From: Pseudothioclava nitratireducens
Lineage (GTDB): Bacteria > Pseudomonadota > Alphaproteobacteria > Rhodobacterales > Rhodobacteraceae
NCBI RefSeq assembly: GCF_029210495.1
Contig: NZ_JARGDK010000006.1
Location: 1 to 64,000 of the forward strand
Length of the DNA: 64,000 bases
Reading direction: 5' to 3'
Below the pieces are notes generated by a model. That model ran no database searches, was not told the origin of the DNA, and saw only the letters and a list, made by a program, of their open reading frames with translations. Position 1 is the first letter of the stretch. Every line of letters starts with the position of its first letter. This document shows, piece by piece, positions 40,729 to 57,180 of the stretch. The translations under genes were made by a program, and so were the position numbers.

Positions 40729-42795
40729 ATGACCATGATCCGCGCATGTCTTCTTTGGCTGTTGCTTGCAACGCCGCTTTTCGCGGCGCCGCTGACGCGT
40801 GACGACATCGCCGGGATGATCGTCGCGCCCTATGCGTTAGGGGAGGCGGTCAACGACAAGGGCGTGTGGGTGCTTTTGAACTCGGGCGGCGGCGAGGCGG
40901 GATTCGTCTTTGAAACGGGCGAACTGGCACCGCTTCCGGGCTTTTCGGGGCAACCGATCAACATCCTCGTCATGCTCGACCGCGAGGGCCGCTTCATCGA
41001 CACGCGGCTGCTGGCGCAGAACGAGCCGATCTTCGTTTCGGGTCTGGGCGAGGCGCCCTTGCGCGATTTTCTGACGCAATATCAGGGCCATTCGATTTCC
41101 GAGACTCTGGTCGTGGGTACCCCCTATGGCGGGGGCGGTGCGGGGTCGGACCTGACCTATCTGGCGGGGGTGACCAAGGCGACCGCGAGCGTCCGGATCG
41201 CGCATGAGTCGATCCTCGCTGCGACGCTCGCGGTGGCGCGTGAGAAGATGCAGGGCGTGAGCGCGGGGCCGCCGCCGCGCCCTGATCCGGACCACGACGA
41301 AGCGATCACCTGGGAGAGTGCGCTCGCGGATGGGCTTGTGCGGCATCTGCGGGTGAGCAATGCCGAGCTGGATGCCGCCTTCGCGGGGTCAATCTGGGCC
41401 GATGACGACCCCGAGGCGCAGGCTGACCCGGATGCCGCCTATCTTGACCTCTATGCCATTGACCTCGGCCCGCCGGCCCTTGCGCGCGCTGTGCTCGCCC
41501 CTGAAACGCTAGCCGAAATCGCGCGATTTGCGGCCCGCGCCCCCGATGACGAATTGATCCTGCTGATCGAGGCCGGACGGCACGGGATCGTCTCTGAAGA
41601 GTTCGTGCGCAACACCGCGCCGGACCGGGTGGCGGCGACGCAAGACGGGCTGCCCCTGGCGCTGCGCGACGCCGATATTCTGCCGCGCCTCCACCCCGAT
41701 CTGCCCGAGGCCTTGCAGGACGCCACCGCGATGGTCCTCCGTCTCGACCGCCGTCTGGGCTTCGATCCAAGCCGCGACTGGGCGCTCGAAGCGCAGGCGC
41801 TGCGGCTCCACGGCATGTTCCAGCCCGAACCCGGCTCGCGCCATTTCTCCCTCGCCATGGGCCTGCCCGAGCGCTTCTTCCTGCGCCCCGAAGCACCGGT
41901 GCAGCGCCCGCCTTGGCTTGAAGCGGCCATCAACCGGCAGGCGGATTTGTGGCTTCTGGCCGGGGCCCTAGTGATCCTCTTCGCGGCGCTTGCCCGGCAA
42001 TCCTGGCTCGCAGGACTGCGCCAGTTCACACCGATCCGGCTTGGCATTCTTGCTATCGTCACCGGCTTCATCGGCTTCTGGGGGCAGGGGCAGCTTTCAA
42101 TCGTCACACCGCTGGCCGTGATCCGAGGGCTGGTGCAGGGCGGCGGGCTGGAGGTGCTTCTCTATGACCCGTTCTCGCTGATCCTCTGGGCGGCTGCGAT
42201 CCTTGGGTTCGTGCTCTGGGGGCGCGGGTTTTTCTGCGGCTGGCTTTGCCCCTTCGGCGCGCTTCAGGAATTCGCCCATCACCTCGGTCGTGCGCTGCGC
42301 CTTCCAGAATGGGAGCCGCCGCAAAGCCTTGGTCGCGCGCTCCTTTGGACAGGACCGGTGGCCTTGGTGGCGCTCGTCCTCGTCGCTTTCGCCGCCCCGG
42401 AACACGCGGAAACCGTGGCCGAGATCGAGCCGTTCAAGACCGCGATCACGATGCAGTTCGACCGGCCCTGGCCCTATGTGCTCTGGGCAGGTGGGTGGCT
42501 CGCCGTGTCGATGGTCTGGTTCAAGGGCTTCTGCCGCTCGATCTGCCCCTTGGGCGCGCTGATGCGGCTGGGCGGGCTGTTGCGCCTGCGCCGCTGGATA
42601 CCCCGTCGCGTCGAATGCGGCAGCCCGTGCCAGCTTTGCCGCGTGCGCTGCCGTTACGGCGCGATCCAGAAGCAAGGCGCGATCCGCTATTCCGAGTGTT
42701 TCCAATGCCTCGACTGCGTAACGATCCACGACGATCCCGCGCAATGTGTGCCGTTGATCCTCAAGGCGCGCAAAGCCGAAAGGAAGGCCGCATGA
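40729..42795 (+). CDS. NosR-like membrane flavoprotein with polyferredoxin end
   Basis: A 688-residue protein. A signal peptide (about 1-19) leads to a periplasmic FMN-binding-like domain; VTKATAS with T152 fits the site flavinylated by ApbE. About five membrane segments follow (405-605), with the NosR/NapH-type motifs C503-x3-C507-P and C602-x3-C606-P. The cytoplasmic end has two cysteine groups (630/634/637/641 and 657/660/663/673) fit for two [4Fe-4S] clusters. Such proteins move electrons across the membrane. No nosZ or other denitrification gene is nearby; apbE overlaps by four bases. A start at 40735 is equally possible. Confidence 0.88.
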   Translation: MTMIRACLLWLLLATPLFAAPLTRDDIAGMIVAPYALGEAVNDKGVWVLLNSGGGEAGFVFETGELAPLPGFSGQPINILVMLDREGRFIDTRLLAQNEPIFVSGLGEAPLRDFLTQYQGHSISETLVVGTPYGGGGAGSDLTYLAGVTKATASVRIAHESILAATLAVAREKMQGVSAGPPPRPDPDHDEAITWESALADGLVRHLRVSNAELDAAFAGSIWADDDPEAQADPDAAYLDLYAIDLGPPALARAVLAPETLAEIARFAARAPDDELILLIEAGRHGIVSEEFVRNTAPDRVAATQDGLPLALRDADILPRLHPDLPEALQDATAMVLRLDRRLGFDPSRDWALEAQALRLHGMFQPEPGSRHFSLAMGLPERFFLRPEAPVQRPPWLEAAINRQADLWLLAGALVILFAALARQSWLAGLRQFTPIRLGILAIVTGFIGFWGQGQLSIVTPLAVIRGLVQGGGLEVLLYDPFSLILWAAAILGFVLWGRGFFCGWLCPFGALQEFAHHLGRALRLPEWEPPQSLGRALLWTGPVALVALVLVAFAAPEHAETVAEIEPFKTAITMQFDRPWPYVLWAGGWLAVSMVWFKGFCRSICPLGALMRLGGLLRLRRWIPRRVECGSPCQLCRVRCRYGAIQKQGAIRYSECFQCLDCVTIHDDPAQCVPLILKARKAERKAA

Positions 42796-43652
42796 AGCGC
42801 AGACGGTTCTTGCAGATCGTGGGCGCGGCGGCGCTGTGCGGGACCGGTGCGCGGGCGGCCACATGGCAGGGCCGCGCGCTCGGGGCGGAGGCCGGGATCA
42901 CGCTACGCGGAGGGGCTTTGCCCAAAGAAACGCTTGCGCACATCCGGGCGGAGCTTGCCCGGATCGAAGCGGTGTTCTCGCTCCATCAACCGTCCGAACT
43001 CACGCAGTTGAACGCCACGGGCAGGGCGGCAGTCTCGCCCGCATTGCGCGCGGTTCTGGACGAGGCGCTCATGGTGCACGAGGCCACGGATGGGGCCTTC
43101 GACCCATCGGTGCAGCCCGTGTGGGCGGCGCTGGCCGCAGGCCGCGCGCCTGCGGCGTTGCGCCATCGTCTCCACGACATCAAGATCGGCCATGACATCC
43201 GCCTCGCTGCCGGTCAGGCCCTTACGCTGAACGGGATCGCGCAGGGTTATGCGACCGACCGGATCGCGGCGCTGCTGGCATCTGCGGGCTATCGGGACTG
43301 CCTGATCAATATCGGCGAGTTCGCCGCGCTTGGCGGCGATTTCCGGCTTGGGATCGAGGACCCGGAAGCCGGGATTCTGGGGCAGATCACTCTGCGGGCA
43401 GGGCGCGCGGTTGCGACCTCTGCGCCGGGGGCGTTGCGGTTCACAGACGGGCAGGGGCATATCCTTGGTCCGGACGGTCAGCGCCCGCGCTGGTCATCGG
43501 TGACGGTGGAGGCACGAACCGCCATGCGCGCGGATGCAGCCTCGACCGGCTTCGTTCTCATGGAGAGGCCCGCAATCGAACGGGCCAAGGCGCGGCTTGG
43601 CCTTGGCCCGGTGCGTCTGGTCGATGCCGAAGGTGGGTTGGTGACGCTCTGA
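42792..43652 (+). CDS. apbE: ApbE-family flavin transferase
   Basis: A 286-residue FAD:protein FMN transferase that attaches FMN to a threonine of partner flavoproteins in the periplasm. The N-terminus MKRRRFLQIVGAAALCGTGA looks like a Tat signal. TDGAFDPSVQPVWAAL and LINIGEFAALGG are the conserved FAD- and metal-site regions. The ATGA overlap with the NosR-like gene points to that protein (T152) as the substrate. It is three bases from the convergent XoxJ-like gene. Confidence 0.92.
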   Translation: MKRRRFLQIVGAAALCGTGARAATWQGRALGAEAGITLRGGALPKETLAHIRAELARIEAVFSLHQPSELTQLNATGRAAVSPALRAVLDEALMVHEATDGAFDPSVQPVWAALAAGRAPAALRHRLHDIKIGHDIRLAAGQALTLNGIAQGYATDRIAALLASAGYRDCLINIGEFAALGGDFRLGIEDPEAGILGQITLRAGRAVATSAPGALRFTDGQGHILGPDGQRPRWSSVTVEARTAMRADAASTGFVLMERPAIERAKARLGLGPVRLVDAEGGLVTL

Positions 43653-43655
43653 GGC

Positions 43656-44588
43656 CTAGCGTTCCGGCGGCATGAAATCGACACCGTATCGCGCAAAAAT
43701 CCCGGCGATCCGCCCATCGGCCAGCCCTGCTGCAATGGCGTCATCGACCGCATAGCCCAAAGGCCGATGCTGGAACGACAACGCCGCCCCTACGGTCCAT
43801 TTCGACCGCGCAAGCCCCAGAAGCGGCGGCTCATGCACGAGCAACCCTTCGGCAAGCCCCGCCTCAAGCTCGGCGCGCGGCCCCATCACCGCCATCACCT
43901 CGCCGCCCGCCAGACCCGCCATCGCATCAAGCGTGGTCGGATAGCGATGCACCTTGTCAGCCGTGGCCCCATGCGCGACCGACGTCAGGTAAAAATCCGA
44001 GATCGAGTCATTCTCGACCCCCACCGGATCATAGCGGAACACGGCGGGGACCGGCCCTTTCTCGGGGTAATCCGCCGCACGATAGGCAATCGCCAGCCGC
44101 TCCTGCGCATATTGCCCGGTGAAGGTGACCTGATCGAAGCGGCAGGCATAATCCACGTCATAGGGCACATGGAGCATCAGGTTCGACACCCGCCCGCCAA
44201 CCGTGGCGCCGCGATAAACGTAATTGAGAAGATCCTGATCGAGCGTTTCTCCGGGCTGCACGAACCGGATACGCGCCTCGACGCCAAGTTCCTGCGCGAT
44301 CAGATCCGCGATCTCGACATCAATGCCGCGCGGCTGGCCCGCTTCTTCCCAGGACCAGGGCGCAAAATTCTCGTAGACGGCCACCTCGATCCAGCCATCT
44401 TCGACGATCTGGTCGTAGGAGCGCCCGATATCCTGCGGCGCGGTGTTTTGCAGACGTTGCTCGGGGGGCACGCCTTCACAAGCGGCCAAAGCGGGGCGCG
44501 GTCCCATCACCGCAACCCCGCACAGGCTCAGGACCAGAGCACCGGCCAGGCCCCGAAACCTGGCCAGCCCGCCCCGCGCCCGCATCAA
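43656..44588 (-). CDS. quinoprotein dehydrogenase-associated binding protein (XoxJ/MxaJ-like)
   Basis: A 310-residue periplasmic protein of the solute-binding type (SBP_bac_3 fold) found with PQQ alcohol dehydrogenases as MxaJ or XoxJ. A signal peptide (about 1-35) precedes the mature sequence with WIEVAVYENFAPWSW, GIDVEIADLIAQELGV and RVSNLMLHVPYDVDYAC. No ABC partner is coded beside it. XoxJ proteins are thought to help dehydrogenase maturation or activation. The start overlaps the cytochrome gene by four bases, giving cytochrome-xoxJ. Confidence 0.87.
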   Translation of the reverse strand: MMRARGGLARFRGLAGALVLSLCGVAVMGPRPALAACEGVPPEQRLQNTAPQDIGRSYDQIVEDGWIEVAVYENFAPWSWEEAGQPRGIDVEIADLIAQELGVEARIRFVQPGETLDQDLLNYVYRGATVGGRVSNLMLHVPYDVDYACRFDQVTFTGQYAQERLAIAYRAADYPEKGPVPAVFRYDPVGVENDSISDFYLTSVAHGATADKVHRYPTTLDAMAGLAGGEVMAVMGPRAELEAGLAEGLLVHEPPLLGLARSKWTVGAALSFQHRPLGYAVDDAIAAGLADGRIAGIFARYGVDFMPPER

Positions 44589-45271
44589 TGCGCCGCCGAA
44601 AGGCCGATCGTGAGCAATTCGGCCGCGTGTTTGAAGCTCTCGGGATCAGCGCTAAGCGCATGGGCCGCGCGCGACACCGCGCTGTCGGCCACCGGCGCAC
44701 CGGAAGCGGTCGGCACCTGTCCCGCGATCTCGGCGAGTTCCGCCTTGAGCGCTTCGCCGTCGCCCTGACCCGCTGCCAGCTCATCCCGGATCGCCTTGAG
44801 CCGCGTGCCATGATCGTCGAGCGCGCCATCGTCGGGGCGGGTCTCGATATAGGTGCGGATCGCCCAGGCCGCCTTCTGACCCAGAACCTCGCCAAAAGCG
44901 GGCATCTTGGTGATGCCGTTCTGGGTCATGCCGTGGCGGAAGCGCTCGATATACCACTCATCGCCATATTCCTCGGCTTCGAGATAGCGCAAATCGGGGG
45001 CGAGACCGCCCGAGACGGCGCCCAGACCATGGCAGCGCGCGCAGTTCTGGTTGAAGCCGGAATCGCCGATCTGAACGGCTTTCGACCAGACCTCGTCCCC
45101 GGCGGCCTCGGCGCGATAGGGGTTTTCGGTCAGCCACTCTTCGCCGACCTCCGGCAGAGCATCGGTATTGACCGCCTGCGGCGCGACATCGCCATGGGCG
45201 AACACCTGCATCGGGGTGATGGTGACCAGCGTCAGCACGCCGATCATCCGGCGGGTACGGGCGTCGAGCAT
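44585..45271 (-). CDS. c-type cytochrome, PedF-like (cytochrome c550)
   Basis: A 228-residue periplasmic monohaem cytochrome. After a signal peptide the mature start HGDVAPQAVNTDALPEVGEEW is typical of PedF, the electron acceptor of PQQ ethanol dehydrogenases. Haem attaches at C77-x2-C80-H81 (NCARCH) and the distal Met lies in ITKMPAFG. An extra C-terminal helical tail of about 80 residues exceeds short cytochromes. It is the first gene of cytochrome-xoxJ, divergent from the NitT/TauT-type importer, and has a GACCAA-type box upstream. Confidence 0.88.
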   Translation of the reverse strand: MLDARTRRMIGVLTLVTITPMQVFAHGDVAPQAVNTDALPEVGEEWLTENPYRAEAAGDEVWSKAVQIGDSGFNQNCARCHGLGAVSGGLAPDLRYLEAEEYGDEWYIERFRHGMTQNGITKMPAFGEVLGQKAAWAIRTYIETRPDDGALDDHGTRLKAIRDELAAGQGDGEALKAELAEIAGQVPTASGAPVADSAVSRAAHALSADPESFKHAAELLTIGLSAAH

Positions 45272-45469: not shown

Positions 45470-46438
45470 ATGATGGCAATCACCACGATGGCCCGCGCGC
45501 TTGGCGCGGCAGTGGCGCTTTGGGCCGGGCTGGCCAGCGCCGAACCGGTTCTCAAACTGGCGACGCTCGAGGGCGGCACGGTGACATGGGAACTCGACAC
45601 GATCACCCATTACGGGCTCGACACGGCGGCGGGGTTCACGCTCGAGGTGATGCCGGTCGCGGGCAAATCCGCATCCAGCGTGGCGCTTCAGGCTGGCGAG
45701 GTGGACGCGATCGTCACCGATTGGCTTTGGGTCGCGCGGATGCGCGCCGAGGGCGAGGATTACCGTTTCATCCCCTATTCGAAATCGGTGGGCGGGCTGG
45801 TTGTGCGCCCCGAGGCGGGGCTGAGCACGCTGGCCGATCTCAAGGGCAAGAAAATCGGCATCGCCGGCGGGCCGCTCGACAAGAGCTGGCTGATCCTTCA
45901 GGCCTGGGCGCAGAAAGAGGCGGGTTTCGATCTGGCCGCCGAGACCGAGCAAGTGTTTGGCGCACCGCCCCTGATCATGGAGGCTGCCCTTTCGGGCGAG
46001 GTCGATGCCGCGATCAATTTCTGGCATTTTCAGGCCAAGATGGAAGCCGCGGGCATGACCACGCTGCTGTCGGTCGCCGAGGCCGCAAGCGATCTGGGGC
46101 TGGACCCCGAGACCCCGCTTCTGGGCTATGTCCTGCGCGGTGATTTCGTCGATCAGAACCCGGACCTCACGGCGGCTCTGGCGGGGGCTTCGCGCGCCGC
46201 CAAGGACAAGCTCGCCACCGATGAGGCGGCGTTCGACCGCTTGCGCCCGATCATGCGTGCGAAATCCGATGCGCAGTTCGAGGCGCTCAAGGCAGGCTAC
46301 CGCGCAGGTATCCCCTCGGCGGCAGCGGTTGATCTCGAGGCTGCGGACCGGATGCTGGGGCTGATGGTGGAACTGGGCGGCGCAAAGCTGATGGGGCCTG
46401 CGCGCACAGTGCCGCCGGGCACGTTCCTGTCTTACTGA
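45470..46438 (+). CDS. NitT/TauT-type ABC substrate-binding protein in the alcohol-oxidation island
   Basis: A 322-residue periplasmic binding protein with signal peptide (to about residue 24, GLASAEPVLKLATLEGGTVTW). The domain resembles SsuA/TauA proteins (VALQAGEVDAIVTDWLWVAR, LKGKKIGIAGGPLDKSW, LSGEVDAAINFWHFQAKM). AGGGAGG precedes the tandem ATG start. With permease and ATPase it forms a complete importer expressed divergently from the PedF-like cytochrome. The ligand is unknown; a compound needed by the dehydrogenase system is an inference from position. Confidence 0.85.
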   Translation: MMAITTMARALGAAVALWAGLASAEPVLKLATLEGGTVTWELDTITHYGLDTAAGFTLEVMPVAGKSASSVALQAGEVDAIVTDWLWVARMRAEGEDYRFIPYSKSVGGLVVRPEAGLSTLADLKGKKIGIAGGPLDKSWLILQAWAQKEAGFDLAAETEQVFGAPPLIMEAALSGEVDAAINFWHFQAKMEAAGMTTLLSVAEAASDLGLDPETPLLGYVLRGDFVDQNPDLTAALAGASRAAKDKLATDEAAFDRLRPIMRAKSDAQFEALKAGYRAGIPSAAAVDLEAADRMLGLMVELGGAKLMGPARTVPPGTFLSY

Positions 46439-46441
46439 CCC

Positions 46442-47260
46442 ATGCGCCTGAGCGGGGTGGATCACAGATCAGGCATCGAGCGCGGCGTGCAGATGCCGCA
46501 GATCGACGCTCCGGGCGTGCCGCGCCCGGTCGCGCTCGTCTCGGTGCTGCTGCTGCTCGGGCTGTGGTGGGCAATCGCGGCGTGGCTTGGCGATCCGCGT
46601 CACGCGCCCGGCCCCGATCTGGTTTTGCCGCGTCTGTGGGAGGGGGTCGTGACCGGCACGATGCTGCCCGATCTGGGGGCGACGCTGGGGCGGGTGGTGA
46701 TCGCCTTTGCCATCGCCATGGGGATCGGCACCGCGCTGGGGCTGCTGCTCGGCGTAATGCCCGCGCTTGATCGCTGGCTTGATCCGTGGCTGACCATTGC
46801 GCTCAACATTCCCGCGCTGGTGACGATCGTGCTGTGCTACCTGTGGATCGGGCTGAACGAAACCGCGGCGATCGCGGCGGTGGCGATCAACAAGATCCCG
46901 ATGGTGGCGGTGATGCTGCGCGAAGGCGCACGAGCGCGCGATCCGGCGCTTGGCGATCTGGCGCGCCTCCACCAGATGCCCGCGCTCGCGCGGCTTCGCC
47001 ATATCCTGCTTCCACAGCTCGCCCCGCATCTGAGCGCCGCCGCAAGAGCCGGTATCGCGCTGATCTGGAAGATCGTTCTCGTCGTCGAATTTCTGGGCCG
47101 TTCCAATGGGATAGGGTTCAGGATTCATCTCGACTTTCAAATGTTCGATATCGCTGGCGTGCTGGCCCATGCGCTGGCCTTCGTGGCCATCATGCTGGCT
47201 GTCGAATGGCTGCTTCTCGCCCCGCTCGCGCGGCGGGCCAACCGCTGGAGGCAGCCATGA
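46442..47260 (+). CDS. NitT/TauT-type ABC permease
   Basis: A 272-residue inner-membrane permease of the BPD_transp_1 type with about six segments, starting with VALVSVLLLLGLWWAIAAWL after a polar N-terminus. The ATPase-contact loop is REGARARDPALGDLARLHQM. It overlaps the ATPase by four bases and follows the binding protein after three bases. A start at 46493 (MPQIDAPGVPRP) would also give a normal length. Confidence 0.88.
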   Translation: MRLSGVDHRSGIERGVQMPQIDAPGVPRPVALVSVLLLLGLWWAIAAWLGDPRHAPGPDLVLPRLWEGVVTGTMLPDLGATLGRVVIAFAIAMGIGTALGLLLGVMPALDRWLDPWLTIALNIPALVTIVLCYLWIGLNETAAIAAVAINKIPMVAVMLREGARARDPALGDLARLHQMPALARLRHILLPQLAPHLSAAARAGIALIWKIVLVVEFLGRSNGIGFRIHLDFQMFDIAGVLAHALAFVAIMLAVEWLLLAPLARRANRWRQP

Positions 47261-47874
47261 TTTCACTCGATCTGCGAAGCAAGGCACATGGCAGGACGCA
47301 GGTCCTCGGGCCAATGCGGATCGAGGTCGCGCCGGGCGAGGTGCTTGGGATCTCCGGCCCGTCGGGCATCGGCAAAAGCACGCTTCTGCGCATCGTCGCA
47401 GGGCTCGACACCCGCTTTGACGGACGGCTCGACGCGCCTGCGGAACGGGCGATGGTGTTTCAGTCGCCCACGCTGCTGCCGTGGCGCAGCGTGTTGGACA
47501 ATATCACCATCCCCACACAATGCCGCCCCGAGGCCGCCCGCGCCATGCTTGCCCGTGTCGGGCTTGCCGGGCATGAGGCGGCTTGGCCCGGTCAGTTGTC
47601 GCTGGGCCAGGCGCGGCGCGTCGCACTGGCGCGCGCTTTCGTCGGAACACCGCGTATGCTCTTGATGGATGAGCCTTTTTCGTCGCTCGACGCGGACCGG
47701 ATCAGCGATCTTCTGACCCTGACCCAGGACCTCATCGCGCAGCATCGACCTGCGGTCATTCTGGCCTCGCACAGCGCCGCCGAACTGGACGCACTGGCAA
47801 CCCGGCGTGCGCATCTAAGTGGCCGGCCGGCCCATCTCGACTATCTCGAAACGCGGCTGCGTGCCGGCTCATAA
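47257..47874 (+). CDS. NitT/TauT-type ABC ATPase
   Basis: A 205-residue ATPase: Walker A GPSGIGKST, Q-loop VFQSPTLLPWRSV, signature LSLGQARRVALARA, Walker B RMLLMDEPFSSLD and switch His in ILASHSAAEL. It is shorter than usual (about 250) at the N-terminal edge and C-terminus but complete in motifs. The 3' end overlaps the convergent exporter permease gene by 34 bases. Confidence 0.88.
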   Translation: MISLDLRSKAHGRTQVLGPMRIEVAPGEVLGISGPSGIGKSTLLRIVAGLDTRFDGRLDAPAERAMVFQSPTLLPWRSVLDNITIPTQCRPEAARAMLARVGLAGHEAAWPGQLSLGQARRVALARAFVGTPRMLLMDEPFSSLDADRISDLLTLTQDLIAQHRPAVILASHSAAELDALATRRAHLSGRPAHLDYLETRLRAGS

Positions 47875-48629
47875 CCCCAGACAGCGAGCCCGAAAAACAC
47901 GATCAAGGCCAACACCGTCCAGCCGAGGGCGGGCAGGTTGAGCTGCCCATAAAGCGCGAACCGGATCAACTCTACCGCGTGGGTGAACGGGTTGACCCGG
48001 CAGAGCCACGCCAGAAACTCCGAGCTTTCCTGCATTTTCCACAGCGGATAGAGGGCCGTGGACAGAAAGAACATCGGGAAGATCACGAAATTCATCACCC
48101 CGGCAAAATTCTCAAGCTGGCGCACGCGCGCTGAAAGCAGGAGCCCCAAGGCGCACAGCATCAACGCGCAAAGGATCAGGGCGGGAAGTGCGGAAATCAC
48201 CCCAATCCACGTAAGCTTTATTCCGTAAAGCGCTGCGATTAAAAGAAAAGCCGCAACCTGAACCAGCCCGACCACCGCGCCCGCCAAAAGCTTTGCGCCC
48301 AGCAGAAACCAACGCGGCAAGGGCGCGGTGAGCAAAAGCCGCATCGCGCCGCTCTCGCGGTCATGGACGAGGCTGAGCGAGCTTTGCATCCCCGAGAACA
48401 GCAAGATCATTCCGCAGAGGCCCGGCAGAATATAGGTCTCGTAGGTGATGTAGGTCTGATACGGCGCGATGATCGAGAGGCCAAGCGCTGCCCGAAAACC
48501 CGCCGCAAAGACCAGAAGCCAGATCAAGGGGCGCACCAACGCGGCGAGGAAACGGGCGCGCTGGCTGAGATACCGGCGTAGCTCGCGCGTCACGATTGCG
48601 CCGACCGCTCGGGCAGGGTGGGCTAGCAT
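47841..48629 (-). CDS. ABC-2 type permease of the PQQ alcohol dehydrogenase system (PedC-like)
   Basis: A 262-residue ABC-2 permease with six membrane segments; RYLSQRARFLAALVRPLIWLL and MQSSLSLVHDRESGAMRLLL match the permease that accompanies PQQ ethanol dehydrogenases (PedC in Pseudomonas). It probably exports a toxic substrate or intermediate, as ABC-2 systems mostly act outward. It overlaps its ATPase gene by seven bases and ends inside the convergent importer ATPase gene. Confidence 0.87.
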   Translation of the reverse strand: MLAHPARAVGAIVTRELRRYLSQRARFLAALVRPLIWLLVFAAGFRAALGLSIIAPYQTYITYETYILPGLCGMILLFSGMQSSLSLVHDRESGAMRLLLTAPLPRWFLLGAKLLAGAVVGLVQVAAFLLIAALYGIKLTWIGVISALPALILCALMLCALGLLLSARVRQLENFAGVMNFVIFPMFFLSTALYPLWKMQESSEFLAWLCRVNPFTHAVELIRFALYGQLNLPALGWTVLALIVFFGLAVWGYEPARSRVSR

Positions 48630-49345
48630 GGCATCGCCCCCGTTTCGCGCAGCATCCAGTCCGACAGTGCACTGCCCGCGCGCAACGCTCCCGCCGTCCC
48701 ATCAGCCTGCAACCGCCCCTGATGCAGCAAGACCACCTGATCCGAGTCGCGGATCTCGTCGCTCAGATGGGTGGCCCAGAGCACCGACACGCCGTGCCCG
48801 GTGAGGTCATGAACATGATCAGTGATCGCGCGGCGGGCAGGCGCATCCAGACCAACAGTCGGCTCGTCAAGGATCAGAAGTGCCGGACGATGCAAGAGCG
48901 CCCGCGCGATTTCCATGCGCCGCCGATGCCCGCCATTGAGATCGCGCACCCGCTCCCGCGCTCGTTCGCGCATGTCCAGACGATCCAGCGCCTCGTCGAT
49001 CCGCTGACTTGAAGTTTTCCGGTCAAGCCCCTGTAAAGACGCAAAATATCGCAGGTTGGACAGGACGCTCAACTCTGCGTCATAGGTTGCGCTTTGAAAC
49101 ACGACCCCGATCTGCGCCAGCGCGGCACGAGGCGCGCGCGCCAGATCGATGCCGCCGATCTCCACCCGTCCGGGGCGCGGACGGATCAACCCGGTCAGGA
49201 CCGAAATCAGCGTCGATTTGCCCGCGCCATTCGGGCCGAGCAACGCTGAGAAACGCCCCCGTGCCACCCGAAACCCGACCCCGTCCAACGCCGACTTGCG
49301 GCCCCAGGCATGGCTCAGATCGCGGATGGCGAGCGCGTCAGTCAA
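48623..49345 (-). CDS. ABC ATPase of the PQQ alcohol dehydrogenase system
   Basis: A 240-residue ATPase partner of the ABC-2 permease. Walker A is GPNGAGKST, the signature NGGHRRRMEIARAL departs from the usual LSGGQ, Walker B is ALLILDEPTVGLD and the switch His is in LWATHL. The modified signature (NGGHRRR) is seen in this exporter class. It overlaps both neighbours, so beta-propeller, cupredoxin-like protein, ATPase and permease are co-expressed. Confidence 0.9.
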   Translation of the reverse strand: MTDALAIRDLSHAWGRKSALDGVGFRVARGRFSALLGPNGAGKSTLISVLTGLIRPRPGRVEIGGIDLARAPRAALAQIGVVFQSATYDAELSVLSNLRYFASLQGLDRKTSSQRIDEALDRLDMRERARERVRDLNGGHRRRMEIARALLHRPALLILDEPTVGLDAPARRAITDHVHDLTGHGVSVLWATHLSDEIRDSDQVVLLHQGRLQADGTAGALRAGSALSDWMLRETGAMPC

Positions 49346-49766
49346 TCGTGATCTCCAGCCGTTGATCGTCGCCGCGCGCGCCCGGTATCTCGAGACTGTA
49401 GCGCCCCGGTTTCACCGCGACGAAGCCAATCTCCATCGTGCCGGGCTGATCGAACTCGACCGAGTGCAAGCCGGTGGGTCGAATCTCCAATCCCTCGATG
49501 ACGATCTCGTCGATCCAGATCGCCCGGAAGAAGTCGCCCCCCTGAAGCCCGATCTCTCCCGAGCCGTCCGAGGTGATCTCAACCTCGTAATAGGCCCCGG
49601 ATTTAAGTGCCCAAGGCCCGCCAAGAGGCTCTCCGACCGACAGGATCATTTCGGGCAGATCGTGTTTGTTCGGACCGGCCAGAAGGCCCGCCGGGGCGGC
49701 ATCGCCATCGGCAACGGCGGGAAGGGCGGCGCAGAGCGCAGCGGCGAGGGTCAGGGAAAATTTCAT
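49338..49766 (-). CDS. exported beta-rich protein, cupredoxin-like without copper ligands
   Basis: A 142-residue periplasmic protein with signal peptide MKFSLTLAAALCAALPAVA. The mature part is beta-rich and ends IGFVAVKPGRYSLEIPG, a pattern like the last strands of cupredoxins. The mature part has no Cys and its single His (HDLPE, HSVEF) positions do not form a copper site, so copper binding is unlikely. It overlaps the ATPase gene by eight bases and follows the beta-propeller after 21. Function unknown; perhaps a chaperone or scaffold of the exporter. Confidence 0.78.
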   Translation of the reverse strand: MKFSLTLAAALCAALPAVADGDAAPAGLLAGPNKHDLPEMILSVGEPLGGPWALKSGAYYEVEITSDGSGEIGLQGGDFFRAIWIDEIVIEGLEIRPTGLHSVEFDQPGTMEIGFVAVKPGRYSLEIPGARGDDQRLEITID

Positions 49767-49787: not shown

Positions 49788-50747
49788 TCACGGGGTCGGA
49801 CGGGCGGCTGCGCCCCAGGGAAAGCGCCCGACCTTGATGGATTTGATGGGTTCAAGCGTCGCCAGATCGATCACCGTCACATCGCCCGAGACACCGTTCG
49901 TGGTGAACAGCTTGGTCTGATCGGGCGAGATCGCCATGTGCCAGACGCGCCGCCCGACAAGGATATATCGCTCGACCGCGTAGCTTTGCGCATCGACCAC
50001 AGCGATATGGTTAGCCGGGCCAAGCGCGACAAAAACCTTCGTGGCATCGGGCGAGAATTTCATTCCGACCGGTTGCAGCTTTTCGGCGCGAATATTCGGA
50101 ATTTCGAAACGGATCTTGCCAACCTCTGCCTTTGTTTCCACATCGAACACAGTCACGGTCCCGCCAATCTCGGAACTGACCCAAAGCACCTGCCCGTCAG
50201 GGCTGAACTCGGCATGGCGCGGGCGCGAGTCGACCAGCGAATTCGCCACGATCTTATGCGTCGTGGTGTCGATCCAATGCGCCATGTTGGTGGTTTCGGA
50301 GGTGGTCACCTGAAGCGTCCCATCAGGAGAAATCCCCATGCCTTCAGGCTCGACCCCGACATCAATTTGCGCGACGACCTTGCGGGTCTCGGTATCGACG
50401 ACGGTGGTGATCGCATCATCCTCATTGGCGATGTAGAGAAGGCGGTCATCCGGGGCGATCACGAATTGCTCTGGGTCTTCGCCGGAGGGCAGCTCGTGCA
50501 GGATGTCGCCGGTATCTGGGTCCATGACCTGCACCGCATCCGAGTCGGAGGCGCAGATATAGAGCCGCTTGAAGTCGCGGCTGAAGGTCACCCCGCGCGG
50601 ACGCTCCCCGGTCGGGTAGGTCGCCTTGACCTCCAGCGTGGTGACGTCGATCACGCTGACCGTGTCGTCCATTTCATTCGTCACCCAGATTTCGTCAGCG
50701 GCGGCGGGCAGACTAAGGGCAGTGCAAAGCAGAAGCGTGCGGATCAT
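49788..50747 (-). CDS. PQQ-dependent catabolism-associated beta-propeller protein
   Basis: A 319-residue periplasmic YVTN-type beta-propeller. The signal peptide MIRTLLLCTALSLPAAA is followed by repeats such as WVTNEMDDTVSVIDVTTLEV, YICASDSDAVQVMDPDTGD and LYIANEDDAITTVVDTETRKV, about seven blades. This family is regularly coded beside PQQ alcohol dehydrogenase ABC genes. It contains no haem motif. It overlaps the binding-protein gene by four bases. Confidence 0.9.
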   Translation of the reverse strand: MIRTLLLCTALSLPAAADEIWVTNEMDDTVSVIDVTTLEVKATYPTGERPRGVTFSRDFKRLYICASDSDAVQVMDPDTGDILHELPSGEDPEQFVIAPDDRLLYIANEDDAITTVVDTETRKVVAQIDVGVEPEGMGISPDGTLQVTTSETTNMAHWIDTTTHKIVANSLVDSRPRHAEFSPDGQVLWVSSEIGGTVTVFDVETKAEVGKIRFEIPNIRAEKLQPVGMKFSPDATKVFVALGPANHIAVVDAQSYAVERYILVGRRVWHMAISPDQTKLFTTNGVSGDVTVIDLATLEPIKSIKVGRFPWGAAARPTP

Positions 50748-51916
50748 CGGGTTTCTCCAAAGGCGGTGCAGGGGCTTTCAGGCGCGTCAAAGCCCAGCGT
50801 GTCGAGTTCGGAATTCTGGTGCAAAAAGCCTTCGAGCGGCGCGAGCGCGACCACAGCACGCTCGGTCACAAGCGGGATCGGCTGGCGCATCTGGCCGTTC
50901 CACGCGCGGAAAGACAAAGGCGTGCCGAGGAACCCGGCGAGCCGGAACTCCCCCGAGAGCAGATAGCCGCGCAACCCCTCGGCCTCGCGCGCGCCAGAGC
51001 GCGTCGCCGCCTCGCCAAGCGCGGCGATCGCGGCCCAGCCTGCATAATCGGTCGCGCGCATCTCGCGCCCCGACAGGTCACGGAAGCGGTTTTGCAACTG
51101 CGCCGCACCATGCTGTTCGACGACGCCCGACCAGCCGCGCGGCTGAACGCCCTCGGACCCGGCCAGAGGGCGCGGTTCCCAGGTGTTATAGGCGATGTAG
51201 CGGGCGAAATCGCCGCGCTCATCGGCGACGAGAAGGAGGTCGTGATCGGGCAGGTCCTGCGTGAACAGAGGCACCTCGGCACTCGCCGCACGGCGCATAT
51301 TCGCATCGAACGCCCATGTTTTCTCGCCCTTGATCTCAAAGCCGAACTTGAGGACAGAGGCCCGCAGCGCATCCGCGAATTCGACATCCTCTGGGTAACT
51401 GCCCGCGATCAGCGCGACATCGGTCCAGCGCTTCCAAAGCGCGAACTGCGCCAGCGCATCCGCGCGCATCGCCGTGCTCGGAACCGTGTGCAACATGTTG
51501 GCCCGGCACTCTTCGGCACGCAGGTCGCGCTCGGGCGCGGCGATATTGAAGATGAGCGCATCTTGCGCCTCGGGCAGGTCGGCAAGCGCCAGAAGATCCG
51601 CGGCGGGCGCGTTCACGATCAACACGCGCGCCCCGGTTTCAAGCAGCGCGCGAGCGGCGGGCAGAAATTCTGCCTCGGGCGGCACCTGTGTCACTTCGAG
51701 CCAATAATCGATGCCCGTGAACCGTCCGGTCGTGGCGATGTCCTCAAGACCCAGACGCGCGCCCGCAAGCCCCAGATCCTCGGGCAGGGCGGACATATTC
51801 GACAGCACCGGCGGCTGCGTCACCTGACGCTCGAGATAGTCGAAGCGCAACGCCTCGGCCATGGCCGGGCTGCCAAGCCAAAGGCAAAGCGCCATCATGG
51901 ACCACGCTAACCGCAT
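50744..51916 (-). CDS. ABC substrate-binding protein of the PQQ alcohol dehydrogenase system
   Basis: A 390-residue periplasmic binding protein of the LivJ-like fold with signal peptide MRLAWSMMALCLWLGSPAMA. The sequence (FDYLERQVTQPPVLSNM near the start, VLIVNAPAADLLALAD) matches the branch linked to PQQ alcohol dehydrogenases (PedA-like). The start at 51916 has GGGAGGAG upstream. It is the first gene of binding protein-propeller-cupredoxin-like-ATPase-permease, divergent from the Sel1-like gene, with a strong inverted repeat in between. Confidence 0.88.
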   Translation of the reverse strand: MRLAWSMMALCLWLGSPAMAEALRFDYLERQVTQPPVLSNMSALPEDLGLAGARLGLEDIATTGRFTGIDYWLEVTQVPPEAEFLPAARALLETGARVLIVNAPAADLLALADLPEAQDALIFNIAAPERDLRAEECRANMLHTVPSTAMRADALAQFALWKRWTDVALIAGSYPEDVEFADALRASVLKFGFEIKGEKTWAFDANMRRAASAEVPLFTQDLPDHDLLLVADERGDFARYIAYNTWEPRPLAGSEGVQPRGWSGVVEQHGAAQLQNRFRDLSGREMRATDYAGWAAIAALGEAATRSGAREAEGLRGYLLSGEFRLAGFLGTPLSFRAWNGQMRQPIPLVTERAVVALAPLEGFLHQNSELDTLGFDAPESPCTAFGETR

Positions 51917-51962
51917 CACTCCTCCCGGTATTTTCGCTCCCCGGCTCAACCTGCGGGCGCGG

Positions 51963-51983
51963 GGTCGTAGTCGCAATACGACC
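51963..51983. promoter_or_regulatory. GGTCGTA-N7-TACGACC inverted repeat
   Basis: Perfect seven-base arms GGTCGTA (51963-51969) and TACGACC (51977-51983) are separated by seven bases and followed by AATG. The right arm matches the TACGACCAA/TAAGACCAA boxes before the cytochrome (52733) and dehydrogenase (53245). It lies midway between two divergent operons and is a likely activator site for both. Confidence 0.5.
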
Positions 51984-52030
51984 AATGTCTAGGGCCGGGC
52001 AGCGCCGCCGGGCGCGCCGGTGACGTGGGG

Positions 52031-52830: not shown

Positions 52831-53214
52831 ATGACTCGCACCATGATGATTGCCGCCACAGCAGCGCTGCTGGCCGCCCCGGCCTTTGCCGATGCGATCG
52901 ACCGGATCAAGATCGACGCGGGCGAGAGCCTGTTCGATGCCCAATGCCGCCGCTGCCATGCGGTCGATGCGACCGATCCGAGCTATGGCCCCTTGCTCGA
53001 CGGGATCGTCGGGCGCAAGGCGGGCACCTTCGAAGGCTATGAGTATTCCGAGGCGCTGGCCGGGGCGGGCTTTGCCTGGACCGCGGGCGCGCTGCGGGCG
53101 TGGATGGAGGATAACGATGCCTTCGTGCCCGGCACCAAGATGCGCCATGTCGGCATCACCGATCCGACCGTGCAGGATTTCATCGTCTCCTATCTCGCCT
53201 CGGTCGGGCACTGA
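52831..53214 (+). CDS. small c-type cytochrome
   Basis: A 127-residue periplasmic class I cytochrome c. The signal peptide ends at about AFA (20), haem binds at C39-x2-C42-H43 (CRRCH), and the distal Met is in GTKMRHVGI. The fold resembles mitochondrial-type cytochrome c2 (GPLLDGIVGRKAGTFEGYEYS). It lies just upstream of the dehydrogenase with its own promoter box and would take electrons from it or pass them to an oxidase. It is distinct from the PedF-like cytochrome. Confidence 0.92.
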   Translation: MTRTMMIAATAALLAAPAFADAIDRIKIDAGESLFDAQCRRCHAVDATDPSYGPLLDGIVGRKAGTFEGYEYSEALAGAGFAWTAGALRAWMEDNDAFVPGTKMRHVGITDPTVQDFIVSYLASVGH

Positions 53215-53267: not shown

Positions 53268-53353
53268 TCCGCGCCTGCGCCTCGATACTTGTCCCGATGC
53301 CCCCGCGTGGAACGAACCGCGCGCGGGCGCTGACTTATCGGGAGGAGACAGCG

Positions 53354-55120
53354 ATGAACCGTTTCGTGCTGGCCGCAGTCGTGGCCATGACCTGTGCCGG
53401 AGCCGCCCATGCGGGCGTGACCGAGCAAGACCTGCTGGAGGATGCGACCTCCACGCATAACGTGCTGACCAACGGCATGGGGCGCGATCTTCAGCGCTTC
53501 AGCCCGCTGACCATGCTCAACAAGGACAACGTCAAGAACCTCGTCCCGGCCTGGGCCTTCAGCCTTGGCGGCGAGAAACAGCGCGGGCAGGAAAGCCAGC
53601 CGCTGATCCATGACGGCGTGATGTATATCACCGGCTCCTATTCCCGGATGTATGCCATCGACCTCGCCACCGGCAAGGAGATCTGGCAATACGACGCGCG
53701 CCTGCCGGAAGGTATCCTGCCCTGCTGTGACGTGATCAACCGCGGTGGCGCGATCTATGGCGACAACATCTATTTCGGCACGCTGGACGCGCGCATCGTG
53801 GCGCTGGACCTGAAGACCGGCGACGTGAAATGGAACAAGAAGATCGCCGATTACAAAGAGGGGTACTCCTACACCGCCGCGCCGCTGATCGTGAACGGTC
53901 TGGTCATCACCGGCAACTCGGGCGGTGAATTCGGTATCGTCGGCGAAGTGCAGGCGCGCGACGCCGAGACCGGCGAGCTGGTCTGGACCCGCCCGGTGAT
54001 CGAGGGCCATATGGGCACGTTCAAGGGCGAGGAAAGCACCATGACCGGGACGCTCAACGCGACCTGGCCCGGCGATATGTGGAAAACCGGGGGCGGCGCG
54101 ACCTGGCTTGGTGGCTCCTATGACGCGGACACCAATACGCTGGTCTTTGGCGCGGGCAACCCGGCCCCCTGGAACTCGCATCTGCGCAACGCGGGCACGC
54201 CCGTCGAGGGCAATACGGGCGACAACCTCTATGCCGCCTCGCGTCTCGGGATCGACCCCGAGAATGGCGAGATCAAATGGCACTTCCAGACCACCCCGCG
54301 CGAGGGCTGGGACTTTGACGGGGTGAACGAAGTGGTCGCGTTCGTCGACAAGGACGGCAACAAGCGCTTCGCCACCGCCGACCGCAACGGCTTCTTCTAC
54401 ATCCTCAACCGCGAAGACGGCAAATTCGTCGCCGCCTATCCCTTCGTGAAGGACATCACCTGGGCCAGCGGCATCGACGAGAATGGCCGCCCGATCTACA
54501 ACGAGGACAACCGTCCCGGCGCGCCCGATGCGGCAGCCGAAGGCGGTAAGGGCCAGCAAGTCTTTGCCGTGCCCTCCTTCCTTGGCGGCAAGAACTGGAT
54601 GCCGATGGCGCATAGCCCGAAAACCGGCCTGTTCTACGTGCCTTCGAACGAATGGGGCATGGATATCTGGAACGAGCCGATCTCCTATAAGAAGGGCGCG
54701 GCCTATCTGGGCGCGGGCTTCACCATCAAGCCGCTCTTCGAGGATTACATCGGCTCGCTCAAGGCGATGGACCCGAATACCGGCGAGGTGAAATGGGAGT
54801 TCAAGAACGAGGCCCCGCTCTGGGGTGGCGTGATGACGACCGCGGGCGGCCTTGTCTTTACCGGCACGCCCGAGGGTGAGTTCATCGCCTTCGACGACGA
54901 GACCGGAGAGAAGCTCTGGTCGTTCCAGACCGGGTCGGGCATCGTCGGCCAGCCGATCACCTGGGATCAGGATGGCGAGCAATATGTCTCGGTCATCTCG
55001 GGCTGGGGCGGTGCGGTTCCGCTCTGGGGTGGCGAAGTCGCCAAAAAGGTGAACTACCTCAACCAGGGTGGCGTCGTCTGGACCTTCAAACTGCCGAAAC
55101 AGCTCGCCTCGGCGAACTGA
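53354..55120 (+). CDS. exaA: PQQ-dependent alcohol dehydrogenase, ExaA/PedH type with lanthanide signature
   Basis: A 588-residue periplasmic quinoprotein with signal peptide (to about residue 20) and an eight-bladed propeller. The vicinal disulfide is C124-C125 ([10 protein letters not shown]); the catalytic Asp is D320 in GWDFDGVNE and is followed two residues on by D322, the extra acid that marks lanthanide-dependent enzymes (XoxF, PedH); calcium enzymes have a small residue there. Sequences such as [20 protein letters not shown] and [15 protein letters not shown] are closer to ethanol (ExaA/PedE/PedH) than to methanol dehydrogenases. It oxidises primary alcohols and passes electrons to cytochrome c. 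PQQ synthesis genes are not in the window. Confidence 0.93.
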
Positions 55121-55269: not shown

Positions 55270-55980
55270 ATGCATATTCAGACCCCCCGTTCCGGCACCC
55301 GCGCCGAATTTCGACGCGCCATGATCGTCGAAGACCACCCGCTGTTTTGCGACGCCCTCGCGATGACGCTTCAGGCTGTGGCCGGGATTGAGCAGGTCGA
55401 CCATGCGGACCGGCTCGCGGCGGCGGTCGAGATGATCGAGGCGGGCGTGACACCGGATGTCATCGTGCTGGACCTGAACCTGCCGGATGTGAACGGGCTT
55501 GATGGGCTGATGCGGCTGCGGCTGGCGGCCCCCAGCCTGCCGATCGTGGTGGTGTCCTCCATCGACGAGCCCCGCGTGATCCGCTCGGCCATACTGGCGG
55601 GCGCGGCGGGGTTCGTGCCGAAGCACTCGCGCCGGGAACTTTTCCGCGCGGCCTTTGCCGCGATCGCGCGGGGCGAGGTCTTTGTGCCGGAATCGAACGG
55701 CGAGGCTTTGGCCGAGGGCAATGGCATGAGCGCGCAGGACGAGGCGATCCGCCGCCTGAGCCAGCTCACCCGCCAGCAGGCGAAGATCCTTGAGCAGATC
55801 TGCGAGGGCAAGATGAACAAGCAGATCGCCTTCGACCTCTCGATAGCCGAGACCACCGTCAAGGCGCATGTCACCGCCATCATGCGCAAGCTGGGCGTCT
55901 ATTCGCGCACGCAAGCCGTTCTGATTGCCCGCGAAGCGCAGGCCACCGGGCCATTGCCCGAGACGTGGCGGAACGGCTAA
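55270..55980 (+). CDS. LuxR-type response regulator of the alcohol-oxidation island
   Basis: A 236-residue NarL-family regulator. The receiver domain (about 16-135) has the acidic pair in MIVEDHPLF and the phosphoacceptor D68 in IVLDLNLPDVNG; the LuxR helix-turn-helix (about 165-228) reads KQIAFDLSIAETTVKAHVTAIMRKLG. It resembles regulators such as AgmR/ErdR that control PQQ ethanol oxidation. Directly followed by the FIST and hybrid kinase genes, it is the probable last step of their signal chain and the best candidate to bind the GACCAA-type boxes. Confidence 0.9.
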   Translation: MHIQTPRSGTRAEFRRAMIVEDHPLFCDALAMTLQAVAGIEQVDHADRLAAAVEMIEAGVTPDVIVLDLNLPDVNGLDGLMRLRLAAPSLPIVVVSSIDEPRVIRSAILAGAAGFVPKHSRRELFRAAFAAIARGEVFVPESNGEALAEGNGMSAQDEAIRRLSQLTRQQAKILEQICEGKMNKQIAFDLSIAETTVKAHVTAIMRKLGVYSRTQAVLIAREAQATGPLPETWRNG

Positions 55981-56001
55981 GCTTCGGTCCGGGAGGATCG
56001 C

Positions 56002-57180
56002 ATGACCGCTACGCAGACCGAAGACCGTCGCACCGCGCCGGGCGGGCAGGGGCCATGCCCGCGCCGCGCCTGCGCCCCCGCGCGCGCAGACGACGCGCTT
56101 GACCGGCTGGTCGCCGGGCTGGGACCGGGACCGTTTGCGCTCGTGCTGATCTTCGCCAGCCCCGAAGCCGATCTGGAGAGCCTCACGCAAACCGCGCAAA
56201 TCGCGTTCCCGCGCACGACGATCTGCGGCTGCACCACCGCCGGCGAGATCACGGATGCGGGCTATGACAGCGGGCAGATCGTGGCCTTTGCCTTTCCGCA
56301 GCAGGGCTTCGAGGTGGAAGCGCTGCTGATCGAGGGGATCGAGGATCTCGACACGCGGGCCTTGATCGCCGACCTTCTGCGCGCGCGCCAGTCGCTTGCA
56401 CGGCGCGGCGAGGGGATGCCGAATGAATTCGCCCTGCTGTTGGTCGACGGGCTCTCGGGACAGGAGGACGCGCTGGTCGCGGCGCTCTCGGGGGGGCTTG
56501 GCCCGGTGCCGATGGTTGGCGGCTCTGCGGGGGACGGAAATGCGTTCCGGCGCACGCTTCTTTCCTTTAACGGCAAGATCCATGAGAACGCTGCCGTCCT
56601 GTGCCTTATGCGCGGGCTGTGCGAAGTGCGGACCTTCTCGCTCGACAACACCCGACCGACCGAGGCGCGCATGGTGGTGACCCGCGCCGACCCCCGGCAC
56701 CGGCTGGTGGCGCGGATCAATGACGAACCGGCGGCCGAGGAATATGCGCGCTTGCTGGGGCTTATGCCCGAACAGCTCTCGCCCTTCGTTTTCGCCGCGC
56801 ATCCGGTTCTGGTGCGCGCAGGCGGACGCCACCATGTCCGCGCAATCCAGGGCGTCGGGCCGGAAAACTCGCTGATCTTCTTTGCCGCCATCGACGAGGG
56901 GCTGGTGCTCACCATCGCCGACCCTGCCGATATCGCCGACCACCTAGAGGCGGAACTCTCAAGCCTCTCGCGCATCCAGCCGCCAAGCGCGATCCTCGGT
57001 TTCGACTGCTTCTTCCGCCGGATTGAGGCGGAGGGGCGTCAGAAGGTTGGGCAGGTCTCGCAGATCCTTGCGCGGCACCGGGTTGCGGGCTTCTCGACCT
57101 ATGGCGAACAGATCGGGGCGATGCATGTGAACCAGACCATGACCGGCGTCGCCTTCTACCCGCCGGAGCCGCGCCGATGA
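56002..57180 (+). CDS. FIST-domain sensory protein
   Basis: A 392-residue cytoplasmic protein with FIST_N (about 45-225, CGCTTAGEITDAGYDSGQ) and FIST_C (about 230-370) domains, which bind small ligands in signalling proteins. The N-terminus has several Cys (CPRRACAPAR). It has no output domain and overlaps the hybrid kinase by four bases (ATGA), so it likely hands its ligand state to that kinase. Possible ligands (alcohol, aldehyde or a metal complex) are inference from context. Confidence 0.88.
   Translation: MTATQTEDRRTAPGGQGPCPRRACAPARADDALDRLVAGLGPGPFALVLIFASPEADLESLTQTAQIAFPRTTICGCTTAGEITDAGYDSGQIVAFAFPQQGFEVEALLIEGIEDLDTRALIADLLRARQSLARRGEGMPNEFALLLVDGLSGQEDALVAALSGGLGPVPMVGGSAGDGNAFRRTLLSFNGKIHENAAVLCLMRGLCEVRTFSLDNTRPTEARMVVTRADPRHRLVARINDEPAAEEYARLLGLMPEQLSPFVFAAHPVLVRAGGRHHVRAIQGVGPENSLIFFAAIDEGLVLTIADPADIADHLEAELSSLSRIQPPSAILGFDCFFRRIEAEGRQKVGQVSQILARHRVAGFSTYGEQIGAMHVNQTMTGVAFYPPEPRR

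Follow-up and report, generated by a model that had tools for sequence, protein, structure and literature searches.

A discrete NosR-type protein subfamily with a KAT motif is linked to PQQ-dependent alcohol oxidation islands and may transfer electrons across the membrane

The best described relative of the proteins treated here is NosR of nitrous oxide (N2O) reduction with its partner NosX/ApbE, the flavinylation motif of ApbE being given as D-x-x-[S/T]-G-A-[S/T] (PMC12052999). Méheust et al. 2021 describe clusters encoding NapH-like proteins and ApbE, which in 172 genomes lie next to the gene of an ethanol oxidase, and propose that the flavinylated NapH-like protein carries electrons from the extracytosolic alcohol oxidase, a role falling to cytochrome c elsewhere; they suggest several independent associations with exaA (PMC8238504). 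For the Pseudomonas ped/exa cluster (PedA1A2BC, PedF, PedG, PedH) no NosR/ApbE pair is named in the outline and section 11 of a review on the ped system (PMC12997753). Here we report on a window, i.e. the whole stretch of 64,000 nucleotides analysed (positions 1 to 64,000 of the forward strand of contig NZ_JARGDK010000006.1), from Pseudothioclava nitratireducens, in which the gene of a NosR-type membrane flavo-iron-sulphur protein of 688 residues (40729-42795, plus strand) and apbE (42792-43652, plus strand) open an island of genes for pyrroloquinoline quinone (PQQ)-dependent alcohol oxidation, as a sequence-only reading of the window had proposed. We find that within the NosR family the protein belongs to a discrete subfamily with a tie to PQQ alcohol oxidation, and we regard both the grouping and the tie as real.

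The window protein has in common with NosR the domain order, the FMN_bind fold, an aligned Thr residue, two CxxxCP motifs, an eight-Cys ferredoxin-type part and the apbE partner. In contrast to NosR, to which it is approximately 30% identical, it forms part of a separate branch supported by 100/100, carries a KAT instead of a GAT motif and is linked to a PQQ island rather than to nosZ. The NCBIfam NosR model matches the protein over residues 35-682 with 420 bits, falling short of the equivalog cut-off of 1000 bits, whereas the full NosR-type architecture is present: an N-terminal domain binding flavin mononucleotide (FMN; residues 19-185, 40783-41283), periplasmic by homology with NosR, is followed by the CxxxCP motifs at C503-P508 (42235-42252) and C602-P607 (42532-42549) and by the ferredoxin-type C-terminus (C630-C673, 42616-42747), all on the plus strand. 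The eight Cys residues of this C-terminal part, which is cytoplasmic by analogy with NosR (PMC7660919), are arranged in the two groups 630/634/637/641 and 657/660/663/673. In an alignment of 111 NosR-type rows, 109 of them distinct, the 12 Cys residues are invariant (111/111), so that the two CxxxCP motifs and the two ferredoxin-type groups noticed by the sequence-only reading are confirmed, as is the overlap of the two genes, the ATG of apbE at 42792 overlapping the NosR-type stop codon TGA (42793-42795). The apbE product, a flavin adenine dinucleotide (FAD):protein FMN transferase (PF02424, 140 bits), is at E<=0.001 the only protein of the 3.0-Mb genome that PF02424 matches. Comparing ApbE proteins paired with KAT proteins (91 rows) with those paired with NosR (5 rows), the majority residues at the jointly conserved positions differ at 191 and 211 only, a comparison to which the 5 rows lend little weight. 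Scans for promoters and terminators yielded no more than expected from shuffled sequence.

The presumed flavinylation site (41164-41190, plus strand), assigned by the alignment and the published motif, reads A-G-V-T-K-A-T152-A-S with the codon of Thr152 at 41182-41184. Thr152 is conserved in all 110 rows with a letter at this position, the remaining one of the 111 having a gap. Compared to the published motif, the sequence A146-G-V-T-K-A-T152 retains Thr and Ala, while Gly is replaced by Lys and Asp by Ala. The Lys at position 150 is almost universal in the subfamily and the common state of the alignment (Lys in 91 rows, Gly in 16, Met in 2, Ser in 1, one gap); the replacement of Asp by Ala (41164-41166) is unique to the window protein among the 111 rows, and the copy of a sister genome, to which it is 82% identical, keeps the Asp. 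The earlier proposal of Thr152 as ApbE site thus holds for the conserved Thr and the RnfG-like FMN fold, while the motif lacks the Gly and the Asp of the published form. These two deviations, at A146 and K150, would also fit a protein that is unflavinylated or decaying after loss of both residues, and the FMN_bind model PF04205 finds no match in the window's own domain at E<=0.1, in contrast to 59 of 61 aligned members at the same threshold. We consider this highly improbable, with the open reading frame intact, 82% identity to the sister copy, and all Cys residues and Thr152 retained; exchange of the Asp for Ala had a minor effect on flavinylation of a Klebsiella pneumoniae fumarate reductase model (PMC12052999). 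In the corresponding passages of the same work, replacement of Gly by Ala approximately halved flavinylation in one model protein, and Lys goes unmentioned (PMC12052999).

That the window protein carries an FMN_bind-type domain is well supported by the predicted structure. As the full-length AlphaFold2 model is weak around the flavinylation site (predicted local distance difference test score, pLDDT, below 50 at residues 128-155), the domain was predicted separately; the model of residues 19-185, built with 61 diverse sequences, reaches a pLDDT of 88.6 and a predicted template modelling score of 0.83. In a structural comparison with the PDB the top 17 rows are RnfG, NqrC and the CbFMN4 domain (8p2b), with IscU rows appearing from Z 7.3; the top match is RnfG (7zc6_G; Z 13.8, root-mean-square deviation 2.8, 137 residues), and the RnfG/NqrC entries span Z 13.8 to 9.0. 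In Foldseek the first 18 rows are Rnf and Nqr chains, two of them at E<=0.001, so that the FMN-binding fold around Thr152, for which structure prediction had been named as the check, is predicted as expected. Unlike the window protein, RnfG and NqrC are separate subunits of ion-pumping complexes and have no ferredoxin tail. Profile searches of PDB sequences remained below threshold (lowest E 0.055, to a complex I subunit; RnfG at E 0.14-0.15). Since PF04205 misses the window's own domain, the lack of PF04205 matches in its genome is no proof of this protein being the single target of ApbE.

Phylogenetic analyses support the KAT proteins being a group of their own. In a tree of 85 rows, 25 KAT and 53 GAT proteins are split by a branch with a value of 100 in the Shimodaira-Hasegawa-like approximate likelihood ratio test, 7 rows being unlabelled. 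In a 45-row tree, a subset of these rows calculated with the motif masked, the branch between KAT proteins and NosR has a support of 100/100, and a single change suffices in every one of the 200 bootstrap trees (100%); the window protein is placed apart from the nosZ-linked NosR proteins. The trees are unrooted, showing two groups rather than their relative age. Loci L136 and L137 (MAT) and L128 (no motif match) fall on the KAT side of the 85-row tree, where they are uncounted as KAT, and L136 and L137 are placed in the KAT group of the 45-row tree. Both stem from metagenome-assembled genomes (Hyphomicrobiales/Methyloligella), and neither the 22 kb of L137 nor the 10 kb of L136 yielded a core island gene. 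For L128, from Paracoccus methylarcula, the tblastn matches of both the NosR-type gene and the PQQ-enzyme gene are split, which suggests frame breaks or sequencing errors.

The genes surrounding KAT proteins in relatives point to alcohol oxidation. Among 20-kb stretches of 19 relatives, 16 contain pedF and 17 a recognisable apbE. Our named loci are the best 80 of 590 relatives; among these, apbE is present in 73 and at least one core island gene in 61, nosZ and nosD give no match, and 52 of the 59 loci of at least 20 kb contain an island gene. Carriers among the matches listed include Paracoccus, Sulfitobacter, Ruegeria, Leisingera, Shinella, Neorhizobium and Allorhizobium. At E<=1e-100 there are also 71 plasmid records with a match to the NosR-type protein, and both of those examined annotate it simply as '4Fe-4S binding protein'. 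In L178 the neighbours of a deep-branching KAT gene are the PQQ enzyme on one side and, on the other, genes read as pqqB, C, D and E, supported by Pfam for B (metallo-beta-lactamase fold), C (TENA/PQQC protein) and E (radical-SAM protein) and assigned by eye for D. In Sedimentitalea xiamensis (L131, 8772-9656) the NosR-type gene has as its divergent neighbour a pqqB-like gene, with a metallo-beta-lactamase fold according to Pfam.

The association extends to whole genomes. In 295 Rhodobacteraceae genomes from 294 genera, i.e. approximately one per genus, with neither ancestry nor horizontal transfer corrected for, the orthologue of the window protein (clade A, at least 49% identity; G133 and G198 counted from fragments) occurs in 60 and pedF in 59, both together in 57, whereas pedF is found in 2 of the 235 genomes without orthologue (p=1e-54). 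The two genes lie within 20 kb in 45 of these 57 genomes, farther apart on one contig in 6 and on different contigs in 6. Linkage and co-occurrence thereby support the connection to the quinoprotein side that had been suspected from the window.

No such association is seen with N2O reductase. At E<=1e-40, nosZ matches occur in 18 of the 60 genomes with the orthologue and in 59 of the 235 without (p=0.51), so that 42 orthologue genomes have none, whereas nosZ is present in 54 of 63 genomes having only a more distant NosR-type match. The statement of the sequence-only reading that denitrification genes are missing applies to the locus, while elsewhere in the genome contig C11 (locus L038, 8491-18870) encodes a Sec-dependent (clade II) nosZ (TIGR04246, 869 bits, cut-off 625), nosD (390 bits, cut-off 300), a NapH-type gene scoring above the cut-off of the NapH/MauN subfamily and a NapG-type gene that falls short of its own cut-offs. 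Further open reading frames (ORFs) on C11 were read by eye as nosB, nosF, nosL, nosY and nor, names unsupported by NCBIfam: at E<=1e-20 those read as nosB, nosL, nosY and nor have no match and nosF has a general ABC-ATPase match only. The window protein could therefore be the NosR of this clade II enzyme, as a protein search of the genome gives no other NosR-length match and as a NosR homologue elsewhere in the genome has been called likely where a nos cluster lacks one (PMC7660919). We nevertheless judge a nos role unlikely, and this assignment to be very improbable: besides the missing association with nosZ, NapG/NapH-type genes are already part of the C11 cluster, and a nos cluster lacking nosR and nosX has been described in a methanotroph (PMC11102522). 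A Sec-dependent nosZ is found by score (E<=1e-40) in 5 of the 295 genomes, and three other genomes with the same low-scoring type (G003, G064, G225) show no NosR-type match at E<=1e-20.

Beyond the family, 66 of 398 Pseudomonadota genomes have a NosR-type match, 65 of which could be classified as 16 KAT, 46 GAT only and 3 other (G363 with TSAT counted as KAT; G442, G641 and G023 without motif match as other; L229 of G396 with no usable ORF). The island marker TIGR03866 is present in all 16 KAT genomes, covering 7 family codes, compared to 61 of the 398 overall (E<=1e-60; p=1e-14, a value that is partly circular because the KAT rule was first noticed on loci included in the count), and in 5 of the 46 GAT-only genomes (p=0.51). 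The freshest part of the count are six KAT genomes in which the 20-kb stretch around the gene contains no island and in which the island was found elsewhere in 6/6; these represent two family codes, and in one of them, f44, KAT-less genomes G356, G420, G478 and G435 also have the island. In seven KAT-less stretches from the window's class or family (L257-L263) there is no pedF match, with a quinoprotein of 34-40% identity in four and none in three.

The alcohol dehydrogenase of the window (53297-55120, plus strand) is PedH-like; at E<=1e-20, TIGR03075 matches no other protein of the genome. Its best solved relatives are 6zcv/6zcw (868 and 855 bits), followed by 1flg (681 bits), which we take to be PedH and ExaA, respectively; it shares the sequence WDFDGVN with 6zcv/6zcw, whereas 1flg has WDFSGNN. 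An Asp two residues past the catalytic Asp marks lanthanide use, and this Asp is present in the window enzyme. It is likewise found in 41 of the 42 loci having the motif by our first pattern (135 loci scanned, 41 distinct sequences), the exception being G002, the one examined of the two pedF-bearing Rhodobacteraceae genomes without orthologue. A strict tie of the protein to lanthanide-type enzymes is weakened by G317, G427, G356, G420 and G663: the island stretch of G317, cut by the contig end, shows WDFSGNN only, and G427 has both enzyme kinds.

These data are consistent with a model, to which we give even chances, according to which the subfamily works for the periplasmic PQQ alcohol-dehydrogenase (ped) system and not for N2O reductase, carries FMN on Thr152 and transfers alcohol electrons partly into the quinone pool beside PedF. 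ApbE encoded by the overlapping gene would attach FMN to Thr152 of the periplasmic domain; an electron path made up of FMN, the CxxxCP segments and the 4Fe-4S ferredoxin part may link the membrane with the PQQ enzyme or its cytochrome, part of the electrons released by alcohol oxidation most likely reaching the quinone pool parallel to cytochrome PedF. As PedF is kept in 57 of the 60 genomes, a simple substitution of the cytochrome misfits this lineage. The remaining options, a parallel route at the quinone level or an outward, NosR-like reductive service, both fit. PQQ and ubiquinone have similar potentials. Because of this similarity and because the system yields electrons, we slightly prefer the inward parallel route.

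In the outward case the same conduit would deliver electrons from quinol or the cytoplasm to mature, activate or protect the PQQ enzyme or its cytochromes, which we see as possible, if rather unlikely. The retention of PedF, the known acceptor, suggests the protein being an addition rather than a replacement, and NosR itself is thought to be an outward donor, to N2O reductase (PMC7660919, PMC12052999). Conversely, an alcohol-oxidising system generates electrons, and we know of no maturation step of a PQQ alcohol dehydrogenase needing a membrane reductant. In favour of the inward model, the acceptor to which PedF itself passes electrons in P. putida is described as not known (PMC12997753).

Several observations weigh against our preferred model of an inward route serving alcohol oxidation. 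Besides the direction described for NosR, with PedF being retained an extra electron exit is not strictly needed, and the exchange of Gly for Lys departs from the published ApbE motif, the window copy also having lost the Asp. Seven of the 59 loci of at least 20 kb contain no core island gene, and three genomes (G020, G098 and G198, with completeness of 95, 84 and 81%) have the orthologue and neither pedF nor TIGR03866. PedH-type (lanthanide-type) islands occur in G356, G420 and G663 with no match to the NosR-type protein, and 45 of the 61 TIGR03866 genomes have no KAT protein, making the KAT protein an optional addition. The co-occurrence tests, moreover, are uncorrected for ancestry.

The protein might also serve another part of the island, either the NMT1-type importer or the molybdenum hydroxylase encoded nearby in some relatives, which appears improbable to us. 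CoxG/S/L/M-like molybdenum-hydroxylase genes adjoin the NosR-type gene or apbE in L044 (7078-11428), L046, L053, L131 and L265, called by Pfam in L044, by annotation in L265 and by eye in the others, and in L044, L046, L053 and L265 they separate apbE (or the NosR-type gene) from the gene at the pedG position; the NosR-type gene often has the permease gene of the importer as its divergent neighbour. In the window locus and in L039-L042, in contrast, there are no hydroxylase genes between apbE and the pedG-position gene and the NosR-type gene stays, and the importer gives no match in the 20-kb stretches L048, L049, L050 and L055, all of which contain the protein. The Cox-type molybdenum hydroxylase is possibly an aldehyde oxidase.

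The island of the window combines PedF, PedC, the PQQ ABC ATPase, TIGR03866, TIGR03863 and the PQQ alcohol dehydrogenase, and it shares with the Pseudomonas ped/exa cluster PedF, PedC, the ATPase, the propeller, the substrate-binding proteins, the PedH-like enzyme and ErdR/NahK-like regulators. Directly following apbE, the minus strand encodes an SBP_bac_3 protein (43656-44588; PF00497, no NCBIfam match at E<=1e-8), presumably PedG/XoxJ judging from its position, and cytochrome c-550 PedF (44585-45271; TIGR04494, 192.6 bits, cut-off 122). An ATP-binding cassette (ABC) importer is encoded on the plus strand by genes for an NMT1/SsuA-like substrate-binding protein (45470-46438), a permease (46442-47260, PF00528) and an ATPase (47257-47874, PF00005, start picked by eye). 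On the minus strand follow the PedC-type alcohol ABC permease (47841-48629; TIGR03861, 415 bits, cut-off 241), the ATPase of the PQQ-alcohol ABC system (48623-49345; TIGR03864, 322 bits, cut-off 302), a conserved small island protein without family match (49338-49766), which adjoins the same genes in relatives according to tblastn, the PQQ-associated beta-propeller protein (49788-50747; TIGR03866, 514 bits, cut-off 287) and the substrate-binding protein of the PQQ-alcohol system (50744-51985; TIGR03863, 471 bits, cut-off 414). A second small c-type cytochrome (52831-53214, plus strand; CycA-type match of 68 bits, cut-off 240) precedes the alcohol dehydrogenase.

The propeller protein scores 67 bits (E 1e-18) against the model of clade III lactonase-type NosZ, below its cut-off of 700, and PQQ-associated propellers of this kind could be wrongly called NosZ. 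Downstream of the dehydrogenase, regulators are encoded on the plus strand (55270-59417), all below equivalog cut-offs: an ErdR-like response regulator (from 55270), a NosP-like FIST protein of the nitric oxide (NO)-sensing type and an NahK/ErcS'-like hybrid kinase (56002-59417 for the latter two). Their position next to the alcohol genes raises the possibility of alcohol oxidation being under NO control. No PqqE match above cut-off was found in the whole genome, though a PQQ enzyme is encoded; the organism may rely on imported PQQ, or the pqqE gene may have been missed by the assembly or the model.

The NapH-like proteins near exaA are very probably proteins of the same kind, going by their description as ApbE-linked membrane proteins next to an ethanol oxidase (PMC8238504), and since electron transfer from alcohol oxidases has already been proposed for them, the claim of the sequence-only reading that such a role is not described for NosR was too strong. 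In contrast to that proposal, PedF is kept here, and the sampled KAT proteins of NosR architecture form one branch, a comparison confined to the NosR-architecture proteins of our sample. New in our analysis are the discrete subfamily, its KAT motif, the tie to the ped island and its accompanying rather than replacing cytochrome PedF. In the open-licence literature we found no reports of experiments on NosR-type proteins encoded in PQQ alcohol clusters, and a search for parallels with MauM/MauN returned nothing useful. As a tentative proposal, for which we see somewhat less than even chances, the KAT proteins may represent an ancient lineage within the NosR family which evolved together with PQQ alcohol oxidation of the lanthanide type and in which a dedicated ApbE flavinylates a Lys-containing motif; in addition to cytochrome c-550, alcohol electrons would then have a second route at the level of the quinones.

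Lanthanide-dependent alcohol oxidation has been reported to be extensive in the ocean (PMC11996626), and the way alcohol electrons join respiration past cytochrome c-550 is described as partly unknown (PMC12997753). As 57 of the 59 pedF-carrying Rhodobacteraceae genomes in the sample encode it, the protein is a concrete candidate for gene deletion. The KAT motif, finally, provides a simple rule by which the subfamily can be told apart from NosR, and with it the potential for N2O reduction should be called wrongly less often.

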